64,000 nucleotides of DNA from Schistocephalus solidus (Eukaryota; Platyhelminthes; Cestoda; Diphyllobothriidea; Diphyllobothriidae): the NCBI GenBank assembly GCA_017591395.1, contig WEDG01000362.1, forward strand, positions 1-64,000. Reading direction: 5' to 3'. The translations under genes and the position numbers were made by a program. Positions 21,098-59,895 of the stretch are shown piece after piece; the stretch's first letter is position 1, and the number at the start of each line of letters is the position of its first letter. The notes beneath the pieces were generated by a model. The model was not told where the DNA came from. It ran no database searches and was given only the letters and a program-made list of their open reading frames with translations.

Positions 21098-22093
21098 TTG
21101 TTATATGAAAAATGTATGCCATATATCGAGAACGTATCTGAAGCTGTTACTCGTCTCTTACAACAACTGGGGATCGGCGTCACCCACAGACCTGAGGCGA
21201 TAAAAATACGTCTGGTCATGAGACCCAAGACCCCACTGTCACACGGCGAAACGGCAAACGTATTCGATCGTGTTCAGTGCGGTTCCTGTGAGGCAAACTA
21301 TGTCAGAGAGACCGGTAAGCGACTACAGACCCGCATGAATGAGCACGCAAGGGCTTTAAGAAGGATTGATAAGCTCTCGTTGGTGGCGTAACACTGTGCG
21401 GCCTCTGCACACACCGTTTATTTCAAGGATGCCGAAATCCTTGGTCGAGGTATCGAGCAAACCACCAGAGAAACGCTCGAAGTCTGGCACACCGTACCAA
21501 CGTCCATTAACCGCTGTACGATTCTCCCAGTGGCCTACAGATCTTACGAGTGCGACTCAATCAAGGGAATCGCAGGCGAGAAGTCAGACTGGTCGCGGTC
21601 AGAACACAGGCCTGAGCTTAAATATGCCACACAGCAACGCATTCGTTGGGATGACTGCGGAGAATGCAAACCAGCAAGACCTCCGGTCAGGCGTAAAAAC
21701 GGACGCAGGTGAACACATGAACACCGATGATGGGCATCTCCAACCCGATAGGAACAGCGACACTGGTAACGACTCAGCTACCACCGATGAGACGCACACG
21801 GACAGGTGCAAACGAAGGACGAGGAACAGACATGCGGGTCCGGGACAACAAACGCGGGCAATGCAGACGAGATCAATGACCCTTGCCATCACGACACAAC
21901 CCCCAGACGGGGCGAGGGAGAAAAATCACTGACCAGCAGAACAGCTATAAACCCCCCAACCCCTGCAGTGCCTCCTTCGCGAATAATTGTAGAGTCAACA
22001 TGTTCAAAACCCATAAATACTGTGAGGCACCGTAACGAACCCACCTCCGACGATGATATCTTGTTTGATTTCGAAATGTCAGGATATTAAACC
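21098..22093 (+). mobile_element. Penelope-like element, C-terminal GIY-YIG part
   Basis: The translation reads PYIENVSEAVTRLLQQ, then a degraded GIY-YIG endonuclease: VQCGSC.ANYVRETGK with the paired cysteines and RMNEHARA. After a stop it continues in another frame as HTVYFKDAEILGRGI, TRETLEVWHT and PTSINRC, the C-terminal block typical of flatworm Penelope elements. A long polar tail runs to a stop at about 22090. The usual YVGETG reads YVRETG, so a conserved Gly is lost. The polymerase part is absent (5' truncation). It lies in the same orientation as a second PLE at 23050. Confidence 0.75.
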
Positions 22094-22137: not shown

Positions 22138-22380
22138 TAGCACAACGGAACATACATGTTCCTTAAGCAGATCGGTGAGCCACACTTGGGATTGGGTATG
22201 ACTGGCTGATGACGGCTAATAAGCCAGAAATGGCCATTCCGGTCTCCCTTGTCTTTGTCGGTTCCATTCCATCATATGCTACACGTCGCTATGCGAACAC
22301 CTGCGAGGGATCTAGTCTGAGCTCCAGGGCACAACGGAACATGCATGTTCCTTAAGCAGATCGGTGAGCCCCACACTATC
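22138..22380 (+). mobile_element. SINE copy A with duplicated tail
   Basis: A tail block GCACAACGGAACAT.CATGTTCC...GATCGGTGAGCC occurs at 22138-22186 and again at 22329-22377, 191 bases apart. The hammerhead-like core lies between. The middle matches SINE copies B, C and D (GACGGCTAATAAGCC and CCCTTGTCTTTGTCGG). The copy runs into an AT microsatellite at 22381. Confidence 0.65.
22200..22244 (+). ncRNA. hammerhead-like motif in SINE copy A
   Basis: Order of parts: stem I strand GACTGG (22200-22205), core CTGATGA (22206-22212), a 14-nt stem II with GGCT/AGCC pairing around AATA, core GAA (22227-22229), palindromic stem III ATGGCCAT, T at the cleavage position (22238), and stem I partner CCGGTC (22239-22244). 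All six stem I positions pair, one as G-T. The first stem II pair is a C/A mismatch, and the cleavage triplet would be AUU, so activity may be weak or lost. Confidence 0.55.
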
Positions 22381-22397
22381 ATATATATATATATATA
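22381..22397. repeat. AT microsatellite between two SINEs
   Basis: A short AT run at which plus-strand copy A and minus-strand copy B both end. It may represent their 3' tails or a shared target. Confidence 0.7.
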
Positions 22398-22632
22398 AAA
22401 CTGGTAATGGGGCGCTCACCGCTCGGTTACAGGACTCACTCGTCCCGTTGTGCCTTGGGGCTATCTCTCAAGCCCCGCCAGCAGCCGTAAGGCAGCTAAG
22501 TATATAGGCAGAATAACATGACCGACAAAGACAAGGGAGACTGGAATGGCCATTTCTGGCTTATTAGCTGTCATCAGCCAGCCATACCCTAACCCAGGTG
22601 CTGCAGCGCGTGAGCCTCGAACTCGCGTCATA
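22398..22632 (-). mobile_element. tRNA-derived SINE copy B
   Basis: Read on the minus strand, it starts near GACGCGAGTTCGAGGCTC, which fits a polymerase III B box. It continues with TATGGCTGGCTGATGA and the shared body CAGTCTCCCTTGTCTTTGTC. It ends with GGCACAACGGGACGAGTG and GCGGTGAGCGCC before the AT run. Copies C-F share this plan. SINEs are copied from polymerase III transcripts by a partner retrotransposon. The A box side is disturbed by the junction with the tandem repeat at 22626. Confidence 0.65.
22539..22583 (-). ncRNA. hammerhead-like motif in SINE copy B
   Basis: Minus-strand order: GGCTGG, CTGATGA, a 14-nt stem II region (AGCT/AGCC, first pair lost), GAA, ATGGCCAT, T, CCAGTC. The six stem I positions pair with one G-U. 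Stem I can resume beyond a small internal loop as CCCT with AGGG. The total is 45 nt, equal to copy A and to the motif at 22820. Confidence 0.55.
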
Positions 22633-23040
22633 TGCCTTGTGCAGTGAGGTACATAAACAAGTCAAACAAGTGCGTAACACTCACTGATGTGGTTAGGATC
22701 TCGTTCGATCCCATTTGTCCGTCCGCCCGCCAGCTAGCTACCGGCAAAAACGAACGTTGTGTCATAGGACACATACCACATATAGAGCACATATATGTTG
22801 CTAAGGGTGCAACAGGCAAGACGTAGACAGCTGTTTCACGATCGTTACCGATCATCAGTACGTCATATGCCTTGTGCAGTGAGGTACATAAACAAGTCAA
22901 ACAAGTGCGTAACACTCACTGATGTGGTTAGGGTCTCACTCGATCCCATTTGTCCGTCCGCCCGCCAGCTAGCTACCGGCGATTAACGAACGTTGTGTCA
23001 TAGGACACATACCACATATAATTTATATGTATGTTGCTAA
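22626..23040. repeat. two direct 180-bp repeats, period 235 bp
   Basis: 22626-22805 and 22861-23040 are almost identical, each starting CGTCATATGCCTTGTGCAGT and ending near CATATAT.TTGCTAA, with 55 bases between them. Each contains a B-box-like TCG.TCGATCCC on the plus strand and an A-box-like TTGTGCAGTGAGG. The second copy runs directly into the truncated reverse transcriptase of the PLE at 23050. Tandem non-coding repeats with hammerheads are characteristic of Penelope pseudo-LTRs and of animal retrozymes. Confidence 0.75.
22820..22864 (-). ncRNA. hammerhead ribozyme, type I, candidate
   Basis: Minus-strand order: stem I strand GACGTA (22859-22864), core CTGATGA (22852-22858), 14-nt stem II TCGGTAACGATCGT, core GAA (22835-22837), stem III ACAGCTGT, cleavage base C (22826) in a GUC triplet, and stem I partner TACGTC (22820-22825). 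Stem I is a perfect 6 bp. Beyond an internal loop (TT against ATAT) it resumes as GCCT with AGGC, then TGCA with TGCA. Stem II has a U/U first pair, then C-G, G-C, G-U and U-A around AACG. Hammerheads self-cleave RNA, and this fold fits the short-stem III hammerheads known in Penelope elements and animal retrozymes. Confidence 0.72.
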
Positions 23041-23049
23041 ATTCGTTTC

Positions 23050-24152
23050 CAGGCATAGAATTTTTCCTTCTCACAAGGATACTACAAACAGCTAAAGGGA
23101 GCCCCTATGGGTTCACCCATCTCCGGCTTCTTGGCTGAAGTAACTATGCAAAAATTAGAAGCTACAGCCTTACCACTAGTTAACCCCAAATTATGGGTTC
23201 GCTACGTGGATGACACGTTTGTTATCGTTAAAAAGGATCAACTAGAAAGATTGCATAGCATTATAAACTCAATGGTACCAGGTGTCACCTTCACGCTCGA
23301 AAGAGAAATTGACAGTAAACTCCCGTTTCTTGACGTCCTCGTACAGCGAAAGACTGACGGGACATTTCAAACATCGGTTTACCGCAAGGAAGCTTATGCG
23401 GAAACTATCCTGCATTACCAGAGCAACCACCCTATTGCTCACAAGCGGAGTACTGTTAAAAGCCTACTCAATCGAGCTAAAACGCACTGTTCTGATAATG
23501 AACTCTACCAAAACGAACTCAGTTATTTATTCAAACTATTTTACAGAAATGGTTATCCAAGAGAATTTATACGTCAATGCATGAGACGACAGAATTTAAA
23601 AGAAAAAGGAAGAGACAAGGAACTAGATTGTTCCGGTCAAGTGCCCAAATCAAAGAACTGGCGAACACTTCCGTACATCAAGAACGTGTCCGAACTCGTT
23701 GAAAGGCACCTGCGGAAACGTCAAATCCAAGTGGCGCACAAACCAACGACTACACTACGAAACCAGCTTGTACACCCTAAGGATAGGGTTGGCTATTTAG
23801 ATAAGAAAGAAGTCGTTTACAAGATACCATGTAACAGCTGCAACGCGGTGTACTGTGGTCAGACAGGAAAATCAGCCTCCACAAGCATACACAAACATCA
23901 ATTGGCAGTAAGGAGGCAAGACCACTTGTCTCAAGTTGCCATGCACACGCTAGAAACTGGACACAAATTTGCCTGAGACAAAACCCGCATTGTTGCCTCC
24001 TGTACATCTAAGAAAGGGCGAGAATTTTTAGAGGCCATTTTCTCAGATAACTCATGCATCAACCGACACATCGAATTGGACCATGTGCACGGCTACCTGA
24101 AAGAAAGCGGGAAGAGACGAGAGCCAATCCAAATGGAAATACACCCACAATG
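23050..24152 (+). mobile_element. Penelope-like element, 5'-truncated
   Basis: The element enters within the reverse transcriptase palm and runs to the end of the GIY-YIG endonuclease. Its 5' edge coincides with the end of the tandem repeat at 23040. The coding frame is open from 23059 to 24150 except for one TGA at 23974. This is the best preserved mobile protein in the window, so it is likely the youngest large insertion. Confidence 0.85.
23059..24152 (+). pseudogene. Penelope reverse transcriptase and GIY-YIG endonuclease
   Basis: The frame begins FSFSQGYYKQLKGAPMGSPI, the motif B region, and continues to LWVRYVDDTFVIV with the intact YVDD catalytic pair. Further on come LPFLDVLVQR, a thumb region with HKRSTVKSLLNRA, then VVYKIPCNSCNAVYCGQTGK, the start of the GIY-YIG nuclease with a Cys pair. 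HTLETGHKF precedes a TGA at 23974 where the family has Trp. After it the same frame continues DKTRIVASC, INRHIELDHVHGY and a final stop at about 24150. The N-terminal half of the polymerase is missing. Confidence 0.85.
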
Positions 24153-24805
24153 ACAATAATTGGCAGGAATGACAAAGTGATATCGATTTTTTCGGCACGT
24201 GTTAAATTTAAACTGTTTTTGCACACTCACCACAAGTCTCTCGATGATCTGGGGTGCCAGCGTCGAAAATGTACATAATAAAGTTACCTATTGTTTCCCA
24301 AAGAACGTATTTGCTCTTAATTATATTTCTTGGGATGCCTTTTTTCCAATTTATATATATATTGGCTGAATGATGACAGAATAAGCCTGAAACAGACTGT
24401 ATCAATCTACCCGCATTTTCTGTTGACTCTCCTCTCTCCAATTATAACTCGGCCTGTTCCTGACCTTTGCCACCATACGGAGACTGTTTGCTTCGGTAAG
24501 CCGATTGCTCGGTTTGAGCCTTTTCCTGTTTGAAACAATACCCAATCTGCAGTAAAAGTGCATAAAAGGTGGCGAGGCACTGATGAAATTCGTTTCAATG
24601 AAGTGCTCATGACCCATCTGCTGGACCCAGTGTGTGGAATGTCTGCGTCGTACTCAAGCGCATGTTTGTGTGTCCAGTCTGAGATGGTAGTTAAGGATAC
24701 GATTGACCGAATGAAGGCAGAATAATCCCATAATATACTGCATCAATCTACCCGCATTATCTATTGTCACTCATCTCCACATGTACAAAAGATAAATGGT
24801 AAGTA
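24153..24805. other. non-coding spacer with a short direct repeat
   Basis: The block T.TATCAATCTACCCGCATT.TCT at about 24396-24425 recurs at about 24750-24780. Nothing else is recognised. Confidence 0.4.
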
Positions 24806-25123: not shown

Positions 25124-25300
25124 GAGCCTGTGGTGCAGTGAGTAGAGCTTGCGACTTCTATCCAACAGGTCACGAGTTTGAGTCTTGGGTGCCGCAACAC
25201 ATGAGGTTGGGTATGCCTAGCTAGTGACGGCTAATAAGCCAGAAATGGCCAATCCAGTATCCTTTTTGTTTGTCAGTCATGTCATTCTATATATATGGCA
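25124..25300 (+). mobile_element. tRNA-derived SINE copy D
   Basis: The head contains GTGGTGCAGTGAGTAGAGC (A box) and, 30 bases on, GGTCACGAGTTTGAGTC (B box), the spacing of a tRNA-derived promoter. The body follows with GACGGCTAATAAGCC and AGAAATGGCC. The hammerhead core is damaged (CTAGTGA). It ends in a short TATATATA run, with the usual tail missing. Confidence 0.7.
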
Positions 25301-29395: not shown

Positions 29396-31528
29396 TGCCT
29401 ATTTGATTTGTCTTCCCCACCACCGAAAATCAATTTTTGATTGATCGGCGGCACGCAGAAGCCTGCGGGGGCTCTAGCTCGCAAGTTCACAGTAAAACGC
29501 AACACCCATATTTCGTCCTCCAATCAGGCTACAATATCGAGCACCACTTCAAGGCCACTTTAAATACGCTCTTTAGCACCTACCATGATATAAGTCCGTG
29601 TATCTAGTGAGGGCCTGCATGAATCACCCAAAAATGAACCCGTATTCACAGAAGTGACGGCAATTCTAGTTTTTCAAAGGCCCATACCTATGGCTTAAGG
29701 AAAGTGGCTACCATATCAGAATGATGTTTTTCCTCCTATCTAACCAAAACCCATATCCGACTGAAAATACTTGGAGCAGGACATGCGAAAGGGTGCCTCC
29801 CGTATTACAAATGGACTTACATTAAACTCCAAGGGCAACTAGGGTTAGCGTCAGGAAACGGAAATCGGTCCCACTTTGGAATTTGGCGCAAAACTACGTG
29901 CCATATTGTGAGCCATGGTCTGACCAGACGTTGAAAACAATAAAATTGTCCACTCTTTCATGTGCCATCTAGCAGGACCTCCGCTTCGGTGCCATTAAGC
30001 AGGCTAAATGCAGTAGCTGTCACTTGGTTCTTGTTAAAATTTATAAATGTTCAGTTATTCTGACACAGAAGACACTATCACTGAGGAAATCTACTTAACT
30101 GACCGACGGTTAATGCTACGAGGTCTCTTGGACCTTCTTCAAAACTGAAACAGGTCATATGCGGTTCGGAGACAAATAAAATCGCTTTCCCTTTTCCCAC
30201 CTTATCCCAACAATGGCCACCGAGTTTTTCACAATTAGGTCAAATGAATTTTTAAAATCTGTCAAAACCCCCTGCTTATTACAGTAGCCTTCTGCCAACT
30301 GACGAATGTCGCTCCCCAGTACATCTGGCCTCTCCACGACCAGTAATACCAACAGCAGAGGTTTTAACCAAAAGCCCGACGCGAGATTCACTGATCTTTC
30401 AGTGACTGTATGAGGTAGCTGCAAGGGATTCGGCTCGGTAGTGGCACCGTCCGCCACAATTCAGGAGGAGGTAGAGTTACTTTTAAAATAAGGGATAGTG
30501 CTAAGATTGTGGTTGTCGTAAGAGTAAAGTTTAGGGTAAAGTTTATTGATGAGGTCAGGTCGTTGCAAGATTAGGAGGGTTATGGTGTGCGAGTTGCCAT
30601 CACGGCTAACTTTTGGACACAAAAATAAGTGCCACGCTGGAAGTTAGCACGGGATCAGCTGTTTTAGTGGACGGGTGGGATACGTGTTTCCATGCCCAAA
30701 ACTAAGTTCAAAGGAAAATTGAAAATTGAAAATTATAATATCCTCAACATACTTCTAAGACTTTTATCATTGTCTCCATAATAAGGCACCTTTTTGAGAG
30801 GACGTATCCGCAACCGTCTACAAAGTTTGCTGTAACGATAATTATTGCAAAACACGTCCCGGATACTGAACGATAAGTACAGGCTCGCCTTTATAATCAC
30901 CAGCTGGCACCATGGAGATTGGGCTCCAAACCTCGCAGCCAGTCAGGACTGACTAGTAATATCTTCGGCTTCCAAGCAGCAAAATTTATTGTTTGGAAGA
31001 CTTAGAAGTCCGATCGGCTGAACATAGAGATTAAGTTATGAGATACCAGTTTTAGCCCGAAAGAACTTAAAACTTGGTAGCAGACGCAGATGTCTGTAAT
31101 TTTAGTCAGTTAGTTAAGCTGTTTGCATGGCTCATTCTTCGTAGTGGAATTACCATCTAGGCAGTAGTAACCCTGAATCATCGATCATGCAATTCCATAT
31201 ATTATGCGCCTCATGATCTACATGCAAACCGATAGATTCAACTTCTAAATTAAACCTCTGTTTTAGGCACTGCACACATACCTCCATATGCGTGCGCTGA
31301 AGATTGAAGATTGATTTACTTGGAAAAGCAGAGAGCACTCATGTAATGCAAGACTCATAAATGCATTAGAAAACTTCTGCCAGAGGTTGGTGATACCCTT
31401 ATGAATTTTTTTGTATGCGTATCCATTGTAGACTGTTTGACGAATAAACCTATCTGCAGTCTGGTAGGTAAGACTAAAATCTAATCAACCACATCCTCAG
31501 ACGCTCAAATGTATGAAAGCATAGATGC
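29396..31528. other. no gene recognised, apart from a SINE scrap
   Basis: The 100-codon minus frame at 30155-30457 overlaps the SINE scrap at 30205-30285 and is probably not a gene. Confidence 0.4.
30205..30285 (+). mobile_element. SINE fragment, tRNA-type tail family
   Basis: CACCGAGTTTTTCACAATTA followed by GGTCAAATGAATTTTTAAAATCTGTCAAAACCCC matches the bodies after the tRNA-like heads at 46430 and 55132. The head itself is too decayed to see. Confidence 0.5.
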
Positions 31529-32738
31529 ACCCTGTGCCAAAATATTATGCATGGGGCACATTCGAATGTACACAGCGTATGTTTAGGTATACTTGACAGA
31601 ACGTGACCCGCGGTTACGTCCTAATAACAACTTATTGTCACGGTAACTGGCTATCGGGAACTAAAAGGGGTTAGAGGAAACACCATGAAGACGACTCACG
31701 AGCAAATTAAAAAAAAACACAAGGAAAATGCGCATACGAACGACCACGAAAGCGTGCCCGATTGTCTTACCAAACGTCAATCTTACTGTTTTTAAGTTGA
31801 GAATTATGAACGTGGACCATGCCTATAATAAACATAACAGAAAACAGCTTGCCAATGGAAACTGTTAGTCGAAACATAGCCTCGGCTCCGAACGAATGGG
31901 CCGAGACAGACAGCGGAGCACTGAATACTCAAAACTTTTACTTTTAGTGAAACGACTGAAACAAATGGGCAAATATACGAAACTTCTTCATCACTTCTTA
32001 CTCCACAGCCAGATCTAACGATGGCAACGAGCGACCCCGATAGCAGCAGCAGCAGACACCGGTAAAGATAGACTTGAAAAGGAGACATGATCTGCGTGGG
32101 AGTCCTTTCCAATAAATCATACAAGGTTCATAGAGGTACTACCCAGTCCAGCACGTTTCGCGCAAGGTTGAACCACTAGACTTAATGAACTTGAGCCCTG
32201 CACACCCACTGAAGGCGCAGCTGTCAGCACAACAGGCTTTCTTAATTGTTTCACGACCCAACTTTGGTGAAGATGTAACATGTCAAAAGAGCGTCTGGTC
32301 CACAAACTGTCTCTCATGTAAGGTCAATGAAAATCAAGTCAGACAAAACAAAGTAAAGATTTTAAGCTGGAGCATCCTGATTGCACGGATACCTGAAAAG
32401 TTCGTAAATTCTAGCAGCTTGTTTCCGTAGGTACATAGAGAAACGCTGTGGTGTTGAGTGGAATATCGCTGCAGGCAGACTAATTAACGCAAGGTAAGGA
32501 GACCCGAATGCTCACCCCTAAGAAGAAGTAGTATAATTATTTCTTTCTATCGATAATCTTGAATTAAACAGGCAGTCTGAAACCAAATCATCTTCAAAAA
32601 AGTTTTCATATATGTACATCTGAGTAAGTCGAGTGTTTGCCAAGCATGTTAACTTGTCAACTGAAAGTCACTAAGCGCACGCTCCGCACGTTATAGCGAA
32701 CCTTTGATCAACCATGACTATACTTATTAAACCACTTT
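31529..32738 (+). repeat. large inverted repeat, left arm
   Basis: This segment is the reverse complement of 34937-36247. Identity is very high in the middle (for about 300 bases around 31804-32124 only a handful of differences) and lower toward 32500-32738. The left arm lacks about 95 bases present in the right arm near 35310-35420. Outside both arms the similarity stops abruptly. Confidence 0.85.
31804..32124 (-). CDS. small open frame in the inverted repeat, left arm
   Basis: A frame of 106 codons. From its second Met (residue 13) it reads MSPFQVYLYRCLLLLLSG, a basic-hydrophobic start like a secretion signal, followed by a short Cys-containing body with CGVRSDEEV and SYICPFVSVV. An upstream 66-codon frame on the same strand (32117-32317) overlaps it by a few bases. 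The right arm keeps both frames. I do not recognise the protein. Conservation of the frame may merely reflect the recent duplication. Confidence 0.25.
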   Translation of the reverse strand: MYDLLERTPTQIMSPFQVYLYRCLLLLLSGSLVAIVRSGCGVRSDEEVSYICPFVSVVSLKVKVLSIQCSAVCLGPFVRSRGYVSTNSFHWQAVFCYVYYRHGPRS

Positions 32739-34936: not shown

Positions 34937-36247
34937 AGTTAAAATAAGTATAGCCATGGTTGATAAAAGGTTCGTTTTAATATGAGGAGCGTGCGCTTAG
35001 TGACTTTCAGTTGACAAGTTGACATGCCTGGCAAACACTCGACTTACTCTGATGTACATGTCTGAAAAATGTTTTTTTGAAGATGATTTGATTTCAGACT
35101 GCCTGTTTACTTCAAGATTATCGATAGAAAGAAATCATTAGACTACTTTCCTTAGGGGTGAGCATTCGGGTCTTGTTTAACTTGCGTTAGTTATTCTGCC
35201 TGCAGCGATATCCCACTCAACACCAGAGGGTTTCGCTATGAACCTACGGAAACTAGCTGTTAGAATTTACGAATTTTTCAAGTATCCGTGCAATCATGAT
35301 GCTCCAGCATAGAAAATCCTGTAAGGTGGACGAAAAAGTGTGTCTGGTTGCACAAGCCAACAGCTGTAGTCGTAACTCTTTGACTATCCTCATTGTCAAT
35401 TACTTGGGTAATTTCTTTATTTTGTTCTGTCTGCCCTGTTTTTCATTGACCTTACATGATAGACAGTTTGTGGACCAGACGCTCTTTTGACATGTTACAT
35501 CTTCACCAAAGTTGGGTCGTGAAACAATTAAGAAAGCCTGTTGTGCTGACAGCTGCGCCTTCAGTGGGTGTGCAGGGCTCAAGTTCATTAAGTCTAGTGG
35601 TTCAACCTTGCGCGAAACGTGCTGGACTGGGTAGTACCTCTATGAACCTTGTATGATTTATTGGAAAGGACTCCCACGCAGATCATGTCTCCTTTTCAGT
35701 TCTATCTTTACCGGTGTCTGCTGCTGCTGCTATTGGGGTCGCTCGATGCCATCGTTAGATCTGGCTGTGGAGTAAGCAGTGATGAAGAAGTTTCGTATAT
35801 TTGCCCATTTGTTTCAGTCGTTTCACTAAAAGTAAAAGTTTTGAGTATTCAGTGCTCCGCTGTCTGTCTCGGCCCATTCGTTCGGAGCCGAGGCTATGTT
35901 TCGACTAACAGTTTCCATTGGCAAGCTGTTTTCTGTTATGTTTATTATAGGCATGGTCCACGTTCATAATTCTCAACTAAAAACAGTAAGATTGACGTTT
36001 GGTAAGACAATCGGGCACGCTTTCGTGGTCATTCGTATGCGCATTTTCTTTGTGTTTTTTTTTTTCAATTTGCTCGTGAGTCGTCTTCATGGTGTTTCCT
36101 CTTACCCCTTTACGTTCCCGATAGCCAGTTACCGTGACAATAAGTTGTTATTAGGACGTACCCGCGGGTTACGTTCTGTCAAGTATACCTAAACGTAAGC
36201 TGTGTACATTCGAATGTGCCCCATGCATAATAGTTTGGCACAGGGTG
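34937..36247 (-). repeat. large inverted repeat, right arm
   Basis: This is the reverse complement of 31529-32738. It starts near ATAAGTATAGCCATGG and ends near AGTTTGGCACAGGGTGG. It contains an extra segment of about 95 bases near 35310-35420 relative to the left arm. Confidence 0.85.
35649..35969 (+). CDS. small open frame in the inverted repeat, right arm
   Basis: A frame of 106 codons differing from the left-arm version at only four visible residues, all between residues 17 and 44. It keeps the hydrophobic MSPFQFYLYRCLLLLLLG start and the later residues. A 66-codon frame (35456-35656) precedes and overlaps it. It is unrecognised and is evidence of recent duplication more than of function. 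Confidence 0.25.
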   Translation: MYDLLERTPTQIMSPFQFYLYRCLLLLLLGSLDAIVRSGCGVSSDEEVSYICPFVSVVSLKVKVLSIQCSAVCLGPFVRSRGYVSTNSFHWQAVFCYVYYRHGPRS

Positions 36248-47180: not shown

Positions 47181-48065
47181 AATCAATTTGGACTACCAAA
47201 CAAATCGCCTGTTTTAACCATCGAACAAGAAATTGCTACCCTTGACCTCCTAAAACTCGATGTTGTGCCTTTAAAGTACACAAGCGGTCTTTTAAAACGA
47301 AGTGGTCCTTGTTTTATTACGTACTTCTGCGCAGCGGAATGTGGACTTCCCGAAAAGTCGCTGTAGGTTGTCGAAATTAGTTTATATTTCTTAGTCAGAA
47401 GAGAAAACAGTGAAACTTCCAGTGACAGAGCTAGTTGACCAAGACGAACGCCTTCGTTATGGTCCAGAGGGTGACGTCGACAGAGAACCACTACCTGCAG
47501 GTAGTATACATTTCTGTTCGTGTTAGAAACCTGCAATCAGCGGCAGTTCGAATAATTTAAGCGCATCTTATTTTTGGTTGGTTTTGATTTATTTGCCTAG
47601 ATAGGCAACGTTTTTATGCTGTGCTTGGGGTAGCTTTTAAGTTACCGGGTGGTTAATATTTTAAACTATTTGCATGGGCCTCCAGTTTCTTCGCCCGATT
47701 TAAGACTTGACTTTTGGTTAAGATAATTTTTTCTTTATTCCCTCTCTTCTATAGCTAACCTGTATACTGTTCAATTTCTACTGATGTAAGCTGATTAATA
47801 TATATATATATATATTAACAGCCTTGTTTGTTATCTAGCAACCAGATGGAAACGGTCCTATTTATTGCAAATGATCATTTTCACCTCACCTATATTCTTG
47901 TAAAATCCATGATAAACTTTTCGGTCTTGGTCTGCCTCTTAAGTTACTGAAAATTATTTTCTTCCTTAACCCTTCGAGTTTTATGCAAAATTCCATTTTG
48001 TTTATCATAAGTAAAAACTTATGTTCACCTTCATCCTTAGTCAATATTTGGACGAATATATACAT

Positions 48066-55131: not shown

Positions 55132-55280
55132 GGAGCCTCGTAGCTCAGTTGGCTAGAGCGTTTGCTTTACTGAAGCCTTTCCCTTGCTTGCGTGGGTTTG
55201 AATCCCACCAAGGCCGGCAAGTTTTCACAAATGGGTTGAGTGAATTATTCGAATCTGCTAAAATCCTCCACTAATGCGTG
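55132..55280 (+). mobile_element. tRNA-derived SINE, second family
   Basis: The head GCCTCGTAGCTCAGTTGGCT then AGAGC gives a perfect D arm. After an arm GCTTTACTGAAGC and a long variable region comes GCGTGGGTTTGAATCCCACC, a 5-bp T arm with B box. The 3' side AAGGC partly pairs with the 5' GCCTCG. The body AAATGGGTTGAGTGAATTATT follows. A class II (long variable arm) tRNA origin is likely. Confidence 0.65.
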
Positions 55281-59782: not shown

Positions 59783-59895
59783 GGAGATTACCGACAAGGA
59801 CCTGGGTGACTGGATAGCCATTCCTGGCTTATTAGCCGTCGTCAGCCAGCCTTCCTCAACATCTGATTTGGGGGCACCTGCGATTAGAGTGTTGT
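59783..59895 (-). mobile_element. SINE copy E (truncated) with hammerhead-like core
   Basis: Minus strand: GGCTGG, CTGACGA, CGGCTAATAAGCCA, GGA in place of GAA, ATGGCTAT and CCAGTC at 59808-59851. The motif is one base shorter than the others and the core is damaged. The body CAGTCACCCAGGTCCTTGTC follows. Confidence 0.5.

Follow-up and report, generated by a model that had tools for sequence, protein, structure and literature searches.

The hammerhead motif studied here, found in a 64,000-nt stretch of Schistocephalus solidus DNA (the window, meaning the whole stretch analysed), belongs to a 235-bp repeat that is well supported, on sequence comparison, as a metazoan-type retrozyme, namely a family of short tandem arrays scattered through the genome whose hammerhead is conserved. 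Our main reading, to which we give a probability of about 0.72, is that this tapeworm retrozyme hammerhead would yield circular RNAs, which Penelope-type enzymes likely copy into (AT)n. The basis for this reading consists of (i) a conserved core accompanied by a U.U mispair, (ii) 3' ends fixed at (AT)n, (iii) scattered 5' ends, and (iv) pairs of arrays standing head to head. As far as the literature was searched, retrozymes are a known kind of element, while the family-wide mispairs and the shared (AT)n footprint are new; among the papers listed by a search on hammerhead ribozymes and tapeworms, judged by their titles and the opening of their abstracts, none is on a tapeworm hammerhead.

All of the pieces named in the original prediction are present on the minus strand and in the order given there (Table 1). 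The 5' half of stem I, GACGTA (22864-22859), leads into CTGATGA (22858-22852), a 14-nt stem II insert (22851-22838), and GAA (22837-22835); the 8-nt palindrome ACAGCTGT (22834-22827) then makes up stem III, and is followed by C17 (22826) and by the 3' half of stem I, TACGTC (22825-22820). The window copy matches the type I hammerhead core exactly (CUGANGA, GAA, A15.1-U16.1, and H17), and has all three stems around it: a 6-bp stem I, a stem II with 4 bp after a U.U, and the palindromic stem III. Stem I is perfect over these 6 bp and, also as predicted, continues beyond an asymmetric ATAT/TT internal loop with AGGC/GCCT (22872-22869/22817-22814) and an outer TGCA/TGCA (22878-22875/22811-22808). 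A Watson-Crick closing pair at 10.1-11.1, which is strongly preferred but not absolute, is absent from the window copy, where U.U takes its place. The motif had been described as a spacer between tandem repeats; instead, it forms part of the 235-bp unit, present here in ~1.77 units (22626-23040, minus strand), which rules out a spacer outside the repeat.

A hammerhead descriptor scan of the 64-kb window, with core start positions reported, gave three matches, at +22206, -22577, and -22858, all of them with inserts of 14 nt in stem II and 8 nt in stem III, and two of them mutually related. Chance was modelled with first-order Markov sequence drawn from the window dinucleotides (189.2 million strand-bases), which held 134 matches with at most one core mismatch and 10 with an exact core; the exact-core descriptor is expected by chance 0.007 times per window. 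The strict descriptor (exact core, 6-bp stem I, at least four of five stem II pairs, and 4-bp stem III) and the 14/8 geometry each occurred zero times in these 189.2 million strand-bases, and the lack of strict matches in simulated sequence rules out a chance origin of the motif.

Table 1. Features of the window (U, 235-bp family; H, 302-bp family), with the evidence for each
Feature	Positions	Strand	Evidence
H1 hammerhead motif, C.A first stem II pair	22200..22244	+	Descriptor scan, family alignment
(AT)n between the 3' ends of H1 (+) and H2 (-)	22381..22397	.	Sequence
H2 hammerhead motif	22539..22583	-	Descriptor scan
Full 235-bp retrozyme unit, including the ribozyme	22626..22860	-	Repeat search
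Extended stem I	22808..22878	-	Sequence and MFE fold
Hammerhead ribozyme motif, window U copy	22820..22864	-	Sequence, descriptor scan, covariance model
Predicted self-cleavage site, after C17, GUC triplet	22825..22826	-	Inferred from hammerhead architecture
Second, partial retrozyme unit	22861..23040	-	93% identical to the first over 180 nt
5'-truncated Penelope-like ORF relic	23059..24151	+	Matches residues 49-404 of P0001
Short (AT)n at the Penelope element 3' end	24352..24362	.	Compared with L078-L081
H3 hammerhead motif, GAA to TAA	24934..24978	-	Sequence comparison
H4 hammerhead motif, core decayed (CTAGTGA)	25215..25259	+	Sequence comparison
H5 hammerhead motif, GGAA for GAAA and one deletion	59808..59851	-	Sequence comparison

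To describe the 235-bp family (U), the window's own assembly (603,688,359 bases in 8019 contigs) was searched with the unit, giving at least 173 matches, the best 40 of 1768 candidates having been scored. The sample is non-random, being made up of the best-scoring loci: 39 fetched stretches and the window, 40 loci in all. Within them, there are 137 BLAST matches to the 91-nt ribozyme stretch, of which the 127 that span the motif were aligned and 10 were dropped. The core, whose conservation in other genomic copies of the unit the original prediction had proposed as a check, is fully intact in 106 of these 127 copies, and 119 of the 127 have U/U at 10.1/11.1. According to the available part of one study, natural hammerheads may begin stem II with U10.1-U11.1, the pair that supports most cleavage among the mispairs (PMC3088659). 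The U/U that had been singled out as a weak point is indeed present, and it is therefore a family trait with precedent, not damage. The U family has the same mispair at the same position as those hammerheads, with the difference that U10.1-U11.1 is one of several variants in the accessible text of PMC3088659, whereas it is the family norm in U and is replaced by C.A in the 302-bp H family.

The U units have a mean GC content of 46.5% and a maximum of 49.8% (93 monomers from the best-scoring loci), below the 50% retrozyme limit, and the 50 arrays in the 40 loci range from 0.51 to 9.04 units (median, 2.11), with 42 of them at least 1.3 units long. Across the 93 monomers, mean divergence is 1.4% at 13 core positions versus 4.9% at 190 others (P 0.0009), median divergence is equal for core and other positions, and the 45-nt motif ranks 50th for conservation among 235 windows of the unit; the conservation of the core is suggestive, not strong. 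No two-sided pair changes occur inside the family among the pair types tabulated. Monomers are more alike within arrays than between them in 16 of 20 arrays from the best-scoring loci; in array L040, for example, eight monomers differ by 0.8% among themselves versus 7.5% from others. A tRNA-like head of the 235-bp unit was dropped as a candidate, Rfam having given none. An H-type match also occurs in the fetched sequence of half of the 40 loci (20, counting the window).

The H family, a tandem repeat with a spacing of ~302 bp and a tRNA-like unit, has the same 14/8 hammerhead geometry as U; the relatives of H1 comprise H2-H6. Among its distinct copies, 112 of 118 have C/A at 10.1/11.1 and 98 of 118 an intact core, and the MFE structure contains stems I and II in only 3 of 81. 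On the ribozyme strand, the tRNA-like stretch of the unit from locus L051 (GC 52.3%) matches Rfam tRNA at 29.7 bits (cut-off, 29) and 26.1 bits, and ARAGORN found no tRNA in four H loci. Long 302-bp H arrays occur on contig C6995 (L055, L063-L066, L072, and L073, partly overlapping), with 8-11 copies of the hammerhead motif per ~3-kb fetched stretch.

Recognition by Rfam is a practical criterion for a type I hammerhead, not a defining one. The original prediction had looked to a covariance-model hit, and Rfam gave none above threshold for the window motif, either at its own cut-offs or at E<=10 (whole window, positions 22400-23200, and a 79-nt stretch); it also found no hammerhead at E<=3 in the nine-unit array L040, and H1 alone scored 17.2 bits with HH9 (cut-off, 52). 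A covariance model (R2) built only from H1-H4, with the candidate excluded, finds the candidate over all 45 positions (21.3 bits, E 0.0027, unfiltered window) and misses it with default filters; its next matches in the window score 14.5 bits (repeat E1, described below) and 10.9 bits. Aligning the candidate with H1-H4 (five rows) shows two-sided differences at 7 of 14 pairs, versus a mean of 1.4 in shuffles, none of 500 of which reaches 7, and 0 or 1 two-sided changes in controls with the partner slid by 1-3 columns. Because the four H rows are related, this covariation test in essence compares two designs. Viral contigs scanned with two patterns gave no match.

The MFE structure of the window copy is a competing hairpin that occupies the core, at -27.7 kcal/mol versus -16.9 kcal/mol with the hammerhead imposed, both computed without tertiary terms. 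Position 11.4 is C in 125 of 127 U copies from the best-scoring loci and T in the window copy, and this change lets the core-burying hairpin form; the change in stem II may weaken the ribozyme of the window copy. Among 77 distinct 75-nt U copies with intact CTGATGA and GAA, the MFE structure holds stems I and II in 46, which do not include the window copy, and is without them in 31. Further, all 24 U monomers compared show more self-pairing on the ribozyme strand than on its complement (mean z, -2.43 versus -1.21); these monomers were taken from the first 24 arrays with a full monomer, some being identical, and had insertions removed. The window U copy has a folding z of -4.02 on the ribozyme strand versus -0.90 antisense; a z of -4.0 is reached by 3 of 160 control segments, two of which lie at an AT repeat near 48000. 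Since circular folding is ordinary in the window's H1, H2, and E units, a strong circular fold was not confirmed as a general mark of these repeats.

Phases were counted from the predicted cleavage site for the 50 U arrays in the 40 best-scoring loci, and 36 of the 50 3' ends fall at two fixed sites 120-130 nt apart, with 14 elsewhere. The first site accounts for 19 ends (phases 40-51, with 16 at exactly 46) and the second for 17 (phases 160-180, with values of 164-176), part of the latter spread arising because (AT)n aligns with the unit; three loci with second-site ends (L011, L017, and L028) have no (AT)n there. The densest 5-nt bin contains 17 of the 50 3' ends, against a maximum of 8 in 5000 uniform simulations, and 5 of the 50 5' ends, whose distribution is uniform (P 0.43). 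A 16-nt (AT)8-like stretch lies directly beyond the 3' end in 27 of 49 arrays, compared with 5 of 49 in which one comes before the 5' end. At the two sites, 13 of 18 and 10 of 17 3' ends adjoin (AT)n (23 of 35 together), compared with 4 of 14 elsewhere, over a background of 0.14% of window positions and 0.7% of H-loci positions. Moreover, eight of nine inverted U pairs stand head to head, either abutting or overlapping by at most 24 bp, and one stands tail to tail. Array 5' ends were tested as markers of the cleavage site, which they proved not to be: they are not enriched there (2 of 50 within 2 nt), a result that fits a circular template and gives no direct sign of cleavage. Two arrays (L019 527 and L044 558, both minus strand), too small a number to interpret, have 3' ends no more than 1 nt from where cleavage is predicted (phase 1).

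Array ends in the H family follow the same pattern. The U and H loci together (40 and 30, respectively) gave 56 distinct H 3' ends, which include 14 at phase 149 and 9 at phase 39, with ATATAT following in each case; a strict (AT)n test picks out 17 of the 56 3' ends versus 4 of 64 5' ends, and of 21 inverted pairs, among which the window pair is counted twice, 14 stand head to head. The H 5' ends are not fully uniform, with eight at phase 143. With 3' ends that are mostly fixed at (AT)n, 5' ends that scatter, inverted pairs that mostly stand head to head, and a neighbouring Penelope element that itself ends at (AT)n, the arrays fit circular RNA copied by Penelope-type target-primed reverse transcription.

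The motif does adjoin a Penelope element, as had been claimed: the U array lies upstream of the 5'-truncated ORF and on the opposite strand. The ORF is a relic with an in-frame stop at 23974-23976, and its Pfam RVT_1 score (24.7 bits) is below the cut-off of 29.6. Its relatives P0001, P0002, and P0007 have RVT_1 above cut-off, and GIY-YIG scores 26.7 bits in P0047 (cut-off, 22.6) and 14.7 bits, below cut-off, in P0002; a reverse transcriptase together with GIY-YIG is the established Penelope combination. The best named relatives of the ORF are from Sparganum proliferum and Spirometra (76-77%), with partial Schistocephalus matches at 64-65%, and none of the database sources of the closest named relatives uses the name Penelope. 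The assembly contains at least 42 matches of the element, the best 40 of 3363 candidates having been scored. A second, more diverged Penelope ORF remnant lies at 21110-21703 (+), with 30-46% to four Penelope-type proteins.

Of four fetched Penelope 3' regions, those in L079, L080, and L081 end at (AT)n, which is imperfect in L079 and L081, and the window copy does likewise at a short one (24352-24362); L078 holds a tandem copy that continues into the following ORF. In L079 and L081, the (AT)n is immediately followed by an H element on the opposite strand; L080 contains a U piece ~150 bp beyond it, on the same strand as the Penelope copy. Penelope and both retrozymes thus occur at targets of one type. 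A Penelope ORF match, one of them weak, is found in the flanks of 8 of the 39 non-window U loci among the best-scoring ones, with none in the other 31, and near 6 of 30 H loci; we claim no Penelope excess near the arrays, since the sole comparison is with these H loci, which partly overlap one another and whose flanks are longer.

With an array that immediately precedes a 5'-truncated Penelope ORF encoded by the other strand, the layout would also suit a repeat that is the inverted pseudo-LTR (pLTR) of that element, with the motif as Penelope's own ribozyme, and inverted pLTRs beside 5'-truncated Penelope ORFs are described in the available part of PMC3846280. We consider this highly improbable, and it is largely contradicted by four observations: (i) the U unit and the Penelope 3' region show no meaningful similarity, the best match being 24 AT-rich nt (E 0.045); (ii) the unit is joined to none of the four fetched Penelope copies, three of which end at (AT)n and one of which enters the next ORF without it; (iii) the hammerhead motif is antisense to the adjacent ORF; and (iv) 31 of the 39 non-window U loci are without a Penelope ORF match in their flanks. 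Nor does the unit flank the Penelope ORF as a direct repeat at the window 3' side. A Penelope pLTR ribozyme was therefore rejected on the unlike 3' region, the absence from fetched copies, and the antisense motif. Of the two kinds of putative processing site offered in the original prediction, the retrozyme type stands, supported by dispersed short arrays that keep the hammerhead, and the Penelope type does not; the link to Penelope lies in the insertion footprint, not in a pLTR.

The Penelope parts of the four fetched 3' regions contain no convincing hammerhead. At ~26-75 of L079, CTGACGA, a hairpin, and GTCGAAAA follow each other in a hammerhead-like order, weakly and with a 4-bp stem I, and the window has a changed counterpart at ~24238-24290. 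A third, degenerate hammerhead-like repeat lies at 24364-24407 (+) and ~24704 (+); these copies, E1 and E2, are 76% alike over 87 nt and 341 bp apart. One reading of this repeat has an extra A after A6, a low-activity variant of hammerheads according to the available text of PMC3088659. E1 was rejected as the Penelope element's own ribozyme and is a neighbour, because other Penelope copies end at (AT)n before E1 or enter the next ORF.

At the window locus, H1 ends at the (AT)n on its 3' side, and H2, on the other strand, ends beside the same (AT)n. The 3' end of the U array (phase 200) lies against H2, at neither of the usual sites; on the other side of the array, 18 nt separate its 5' end from the point at which the 5'-truncated Penelope relic begins (23059). 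A head-to-head composite insertion would explain this layout in one step; nested older insertions are possible.

If the main reading holds, multi-unit transcripts would self-cleave between 22826 and 22825 into unit-length RNAs, probably aided by dimerisation through the palindromic stem III, by analogy with other hammerheads, where such a stem III suits dimers (PMC3088659, available part). The unit RNA would be ligated into a 235-nt circle, and both strands of a cut (AT)n would prime reverse transcription at two places on the RNA. Copying would presumably run more than once round the circle, two such products are predicted to be joined head to head, and Penelope would be the source of the reverse transcriptase. 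The window copy would be one such insertion, placed 5' to 5' against the truncated Penelope element. A fuller version, in which the U.U and C.A mispairs are fixed as a working design, cutting that depends on a dimer or a protein spares the circles, Penelope reverse transcriptase copies the circles from both ends of a cut (AT)n, and the window holds a single chimeric insertion, with one DNA end extended on retrozyme RNA and the other on Penelope RNA, is put forward only tentatively and judged unlikely.

Several of the above results would also suit a motif that were a relic that does no cleaving and the repeat had spread by DNA-level amplification or by Penelope copying of uncleaved transcripts. 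The first stem II pair is mispaired in both families, the window copy has its competing hairpin, Rfam recognises neither the window motif nor L040, 5' ends do not cluster at the cleavage site, and the median divergences of core and other positions are equal. However, mean divergence is lower in the core, which is intact in 106 of 127 copies, the second family preserves this design in a different sequence, and U.U is the mispair reported, in the accessible part of PMC3088659, to support most cleavage. On balance, we think a relic unlikely.

We judge no more favourably the proposal that the arrays grew by unequal crossing-over after a shorter insertion, which would call for no circular template and leave the ribozyme only to trim linear RNA. 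Tandem repeats commonly grow by this route, some arrays reach 9 units, and the likeness of monomers within arrays fits it too. Against this, 42 of 50 arrays have at least 1.3 units, with scattered 5' ends and mostly fixed 3' ends, and growth by crossing-over must start from an insertion longer than one unit.

Our main reading places U beside the metazoan non-LTR retrozymes, which the available part of PMC7229834 describes as short tandem units of 150-450 bp with a type I hammerhead, a GC content below 50%, and circular RNAs, and for which copying from circles, possibly by Penelope elements, is proposed; retrozyme-like repeats are reported there for platyhelminths among other phyla. The U family is like them in its 235-bp short tandem, dispersed units, its type I hammerhead, and its GC content below 50%, and unlike them, as far as the accessible part of PMC7229834 goes, in keeping U.U as the first stem II pair in 119 of 127 copies. 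Compared with that source, U further documents two (AT)n 3' sites and head-to-head pairs, whereas its circles are predicted. SMalpha and the W-element of Schistosoma, flatworm repeats of SINE-like or satellite type, carry hammerheads that are either type I or minimal with a short stem III, and three tested W-element candidates cleaved in vitro (PMC8490949, available part); they are different repeats from U and H, likened by description only. Penelope-like hammerheads, in the sections available (PMC7761336 and PMC6155905), resemble U in their short or missing stem III, possible action as dimers, and association with Penelope; unlike them, U is not its neighbour's pLTR, and in its motif a 6-bp stem I leads into an internal loop and stem III is an 8-nt palindrome.

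A parallel to the insertion footprint comes from a purified Anolis Penelope protein, which, in the available part of PMC11167929, prefers AT-rich DNA, cuts and extends both of its strands, and begins reverse transcription from two sites inside the RNA; these are adjacent in Anolis, whereas the U 3' sites are 120-130 nt apart. The Anolis Penelope ribozyme cut only with the protein present and was dispensable for insertion (same source). In rotifer Penelope elements, head to head is the most frequent inverted form (PMC3846280, available part). Animal retrozymes make abundant RNA circles, and the reverse transcriptase that mobilises them is only proposed in the accessible text of PMC7229834. The shared (AT)n 3' junctions, the clustering of 3' ends, the scatter of 5' ends, and the head-to-head pairs constitute a directly testable footprint, and the purified Anolis Penelope protein is an available assay for it. 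If the main reading is true, the family-wide mispair would show a hammerhead tuned down yet retained.

Two further features of the window were recorded: a tRNA-like gene at 55134-55216 (+) with the anticodon TTA, which reads as a stop suppressor (Rfam, 34.2 bits), and a long inverted repeat at 31528-32728 and 34943-36247, the best block of which has 98% complementarity over 575 nt.
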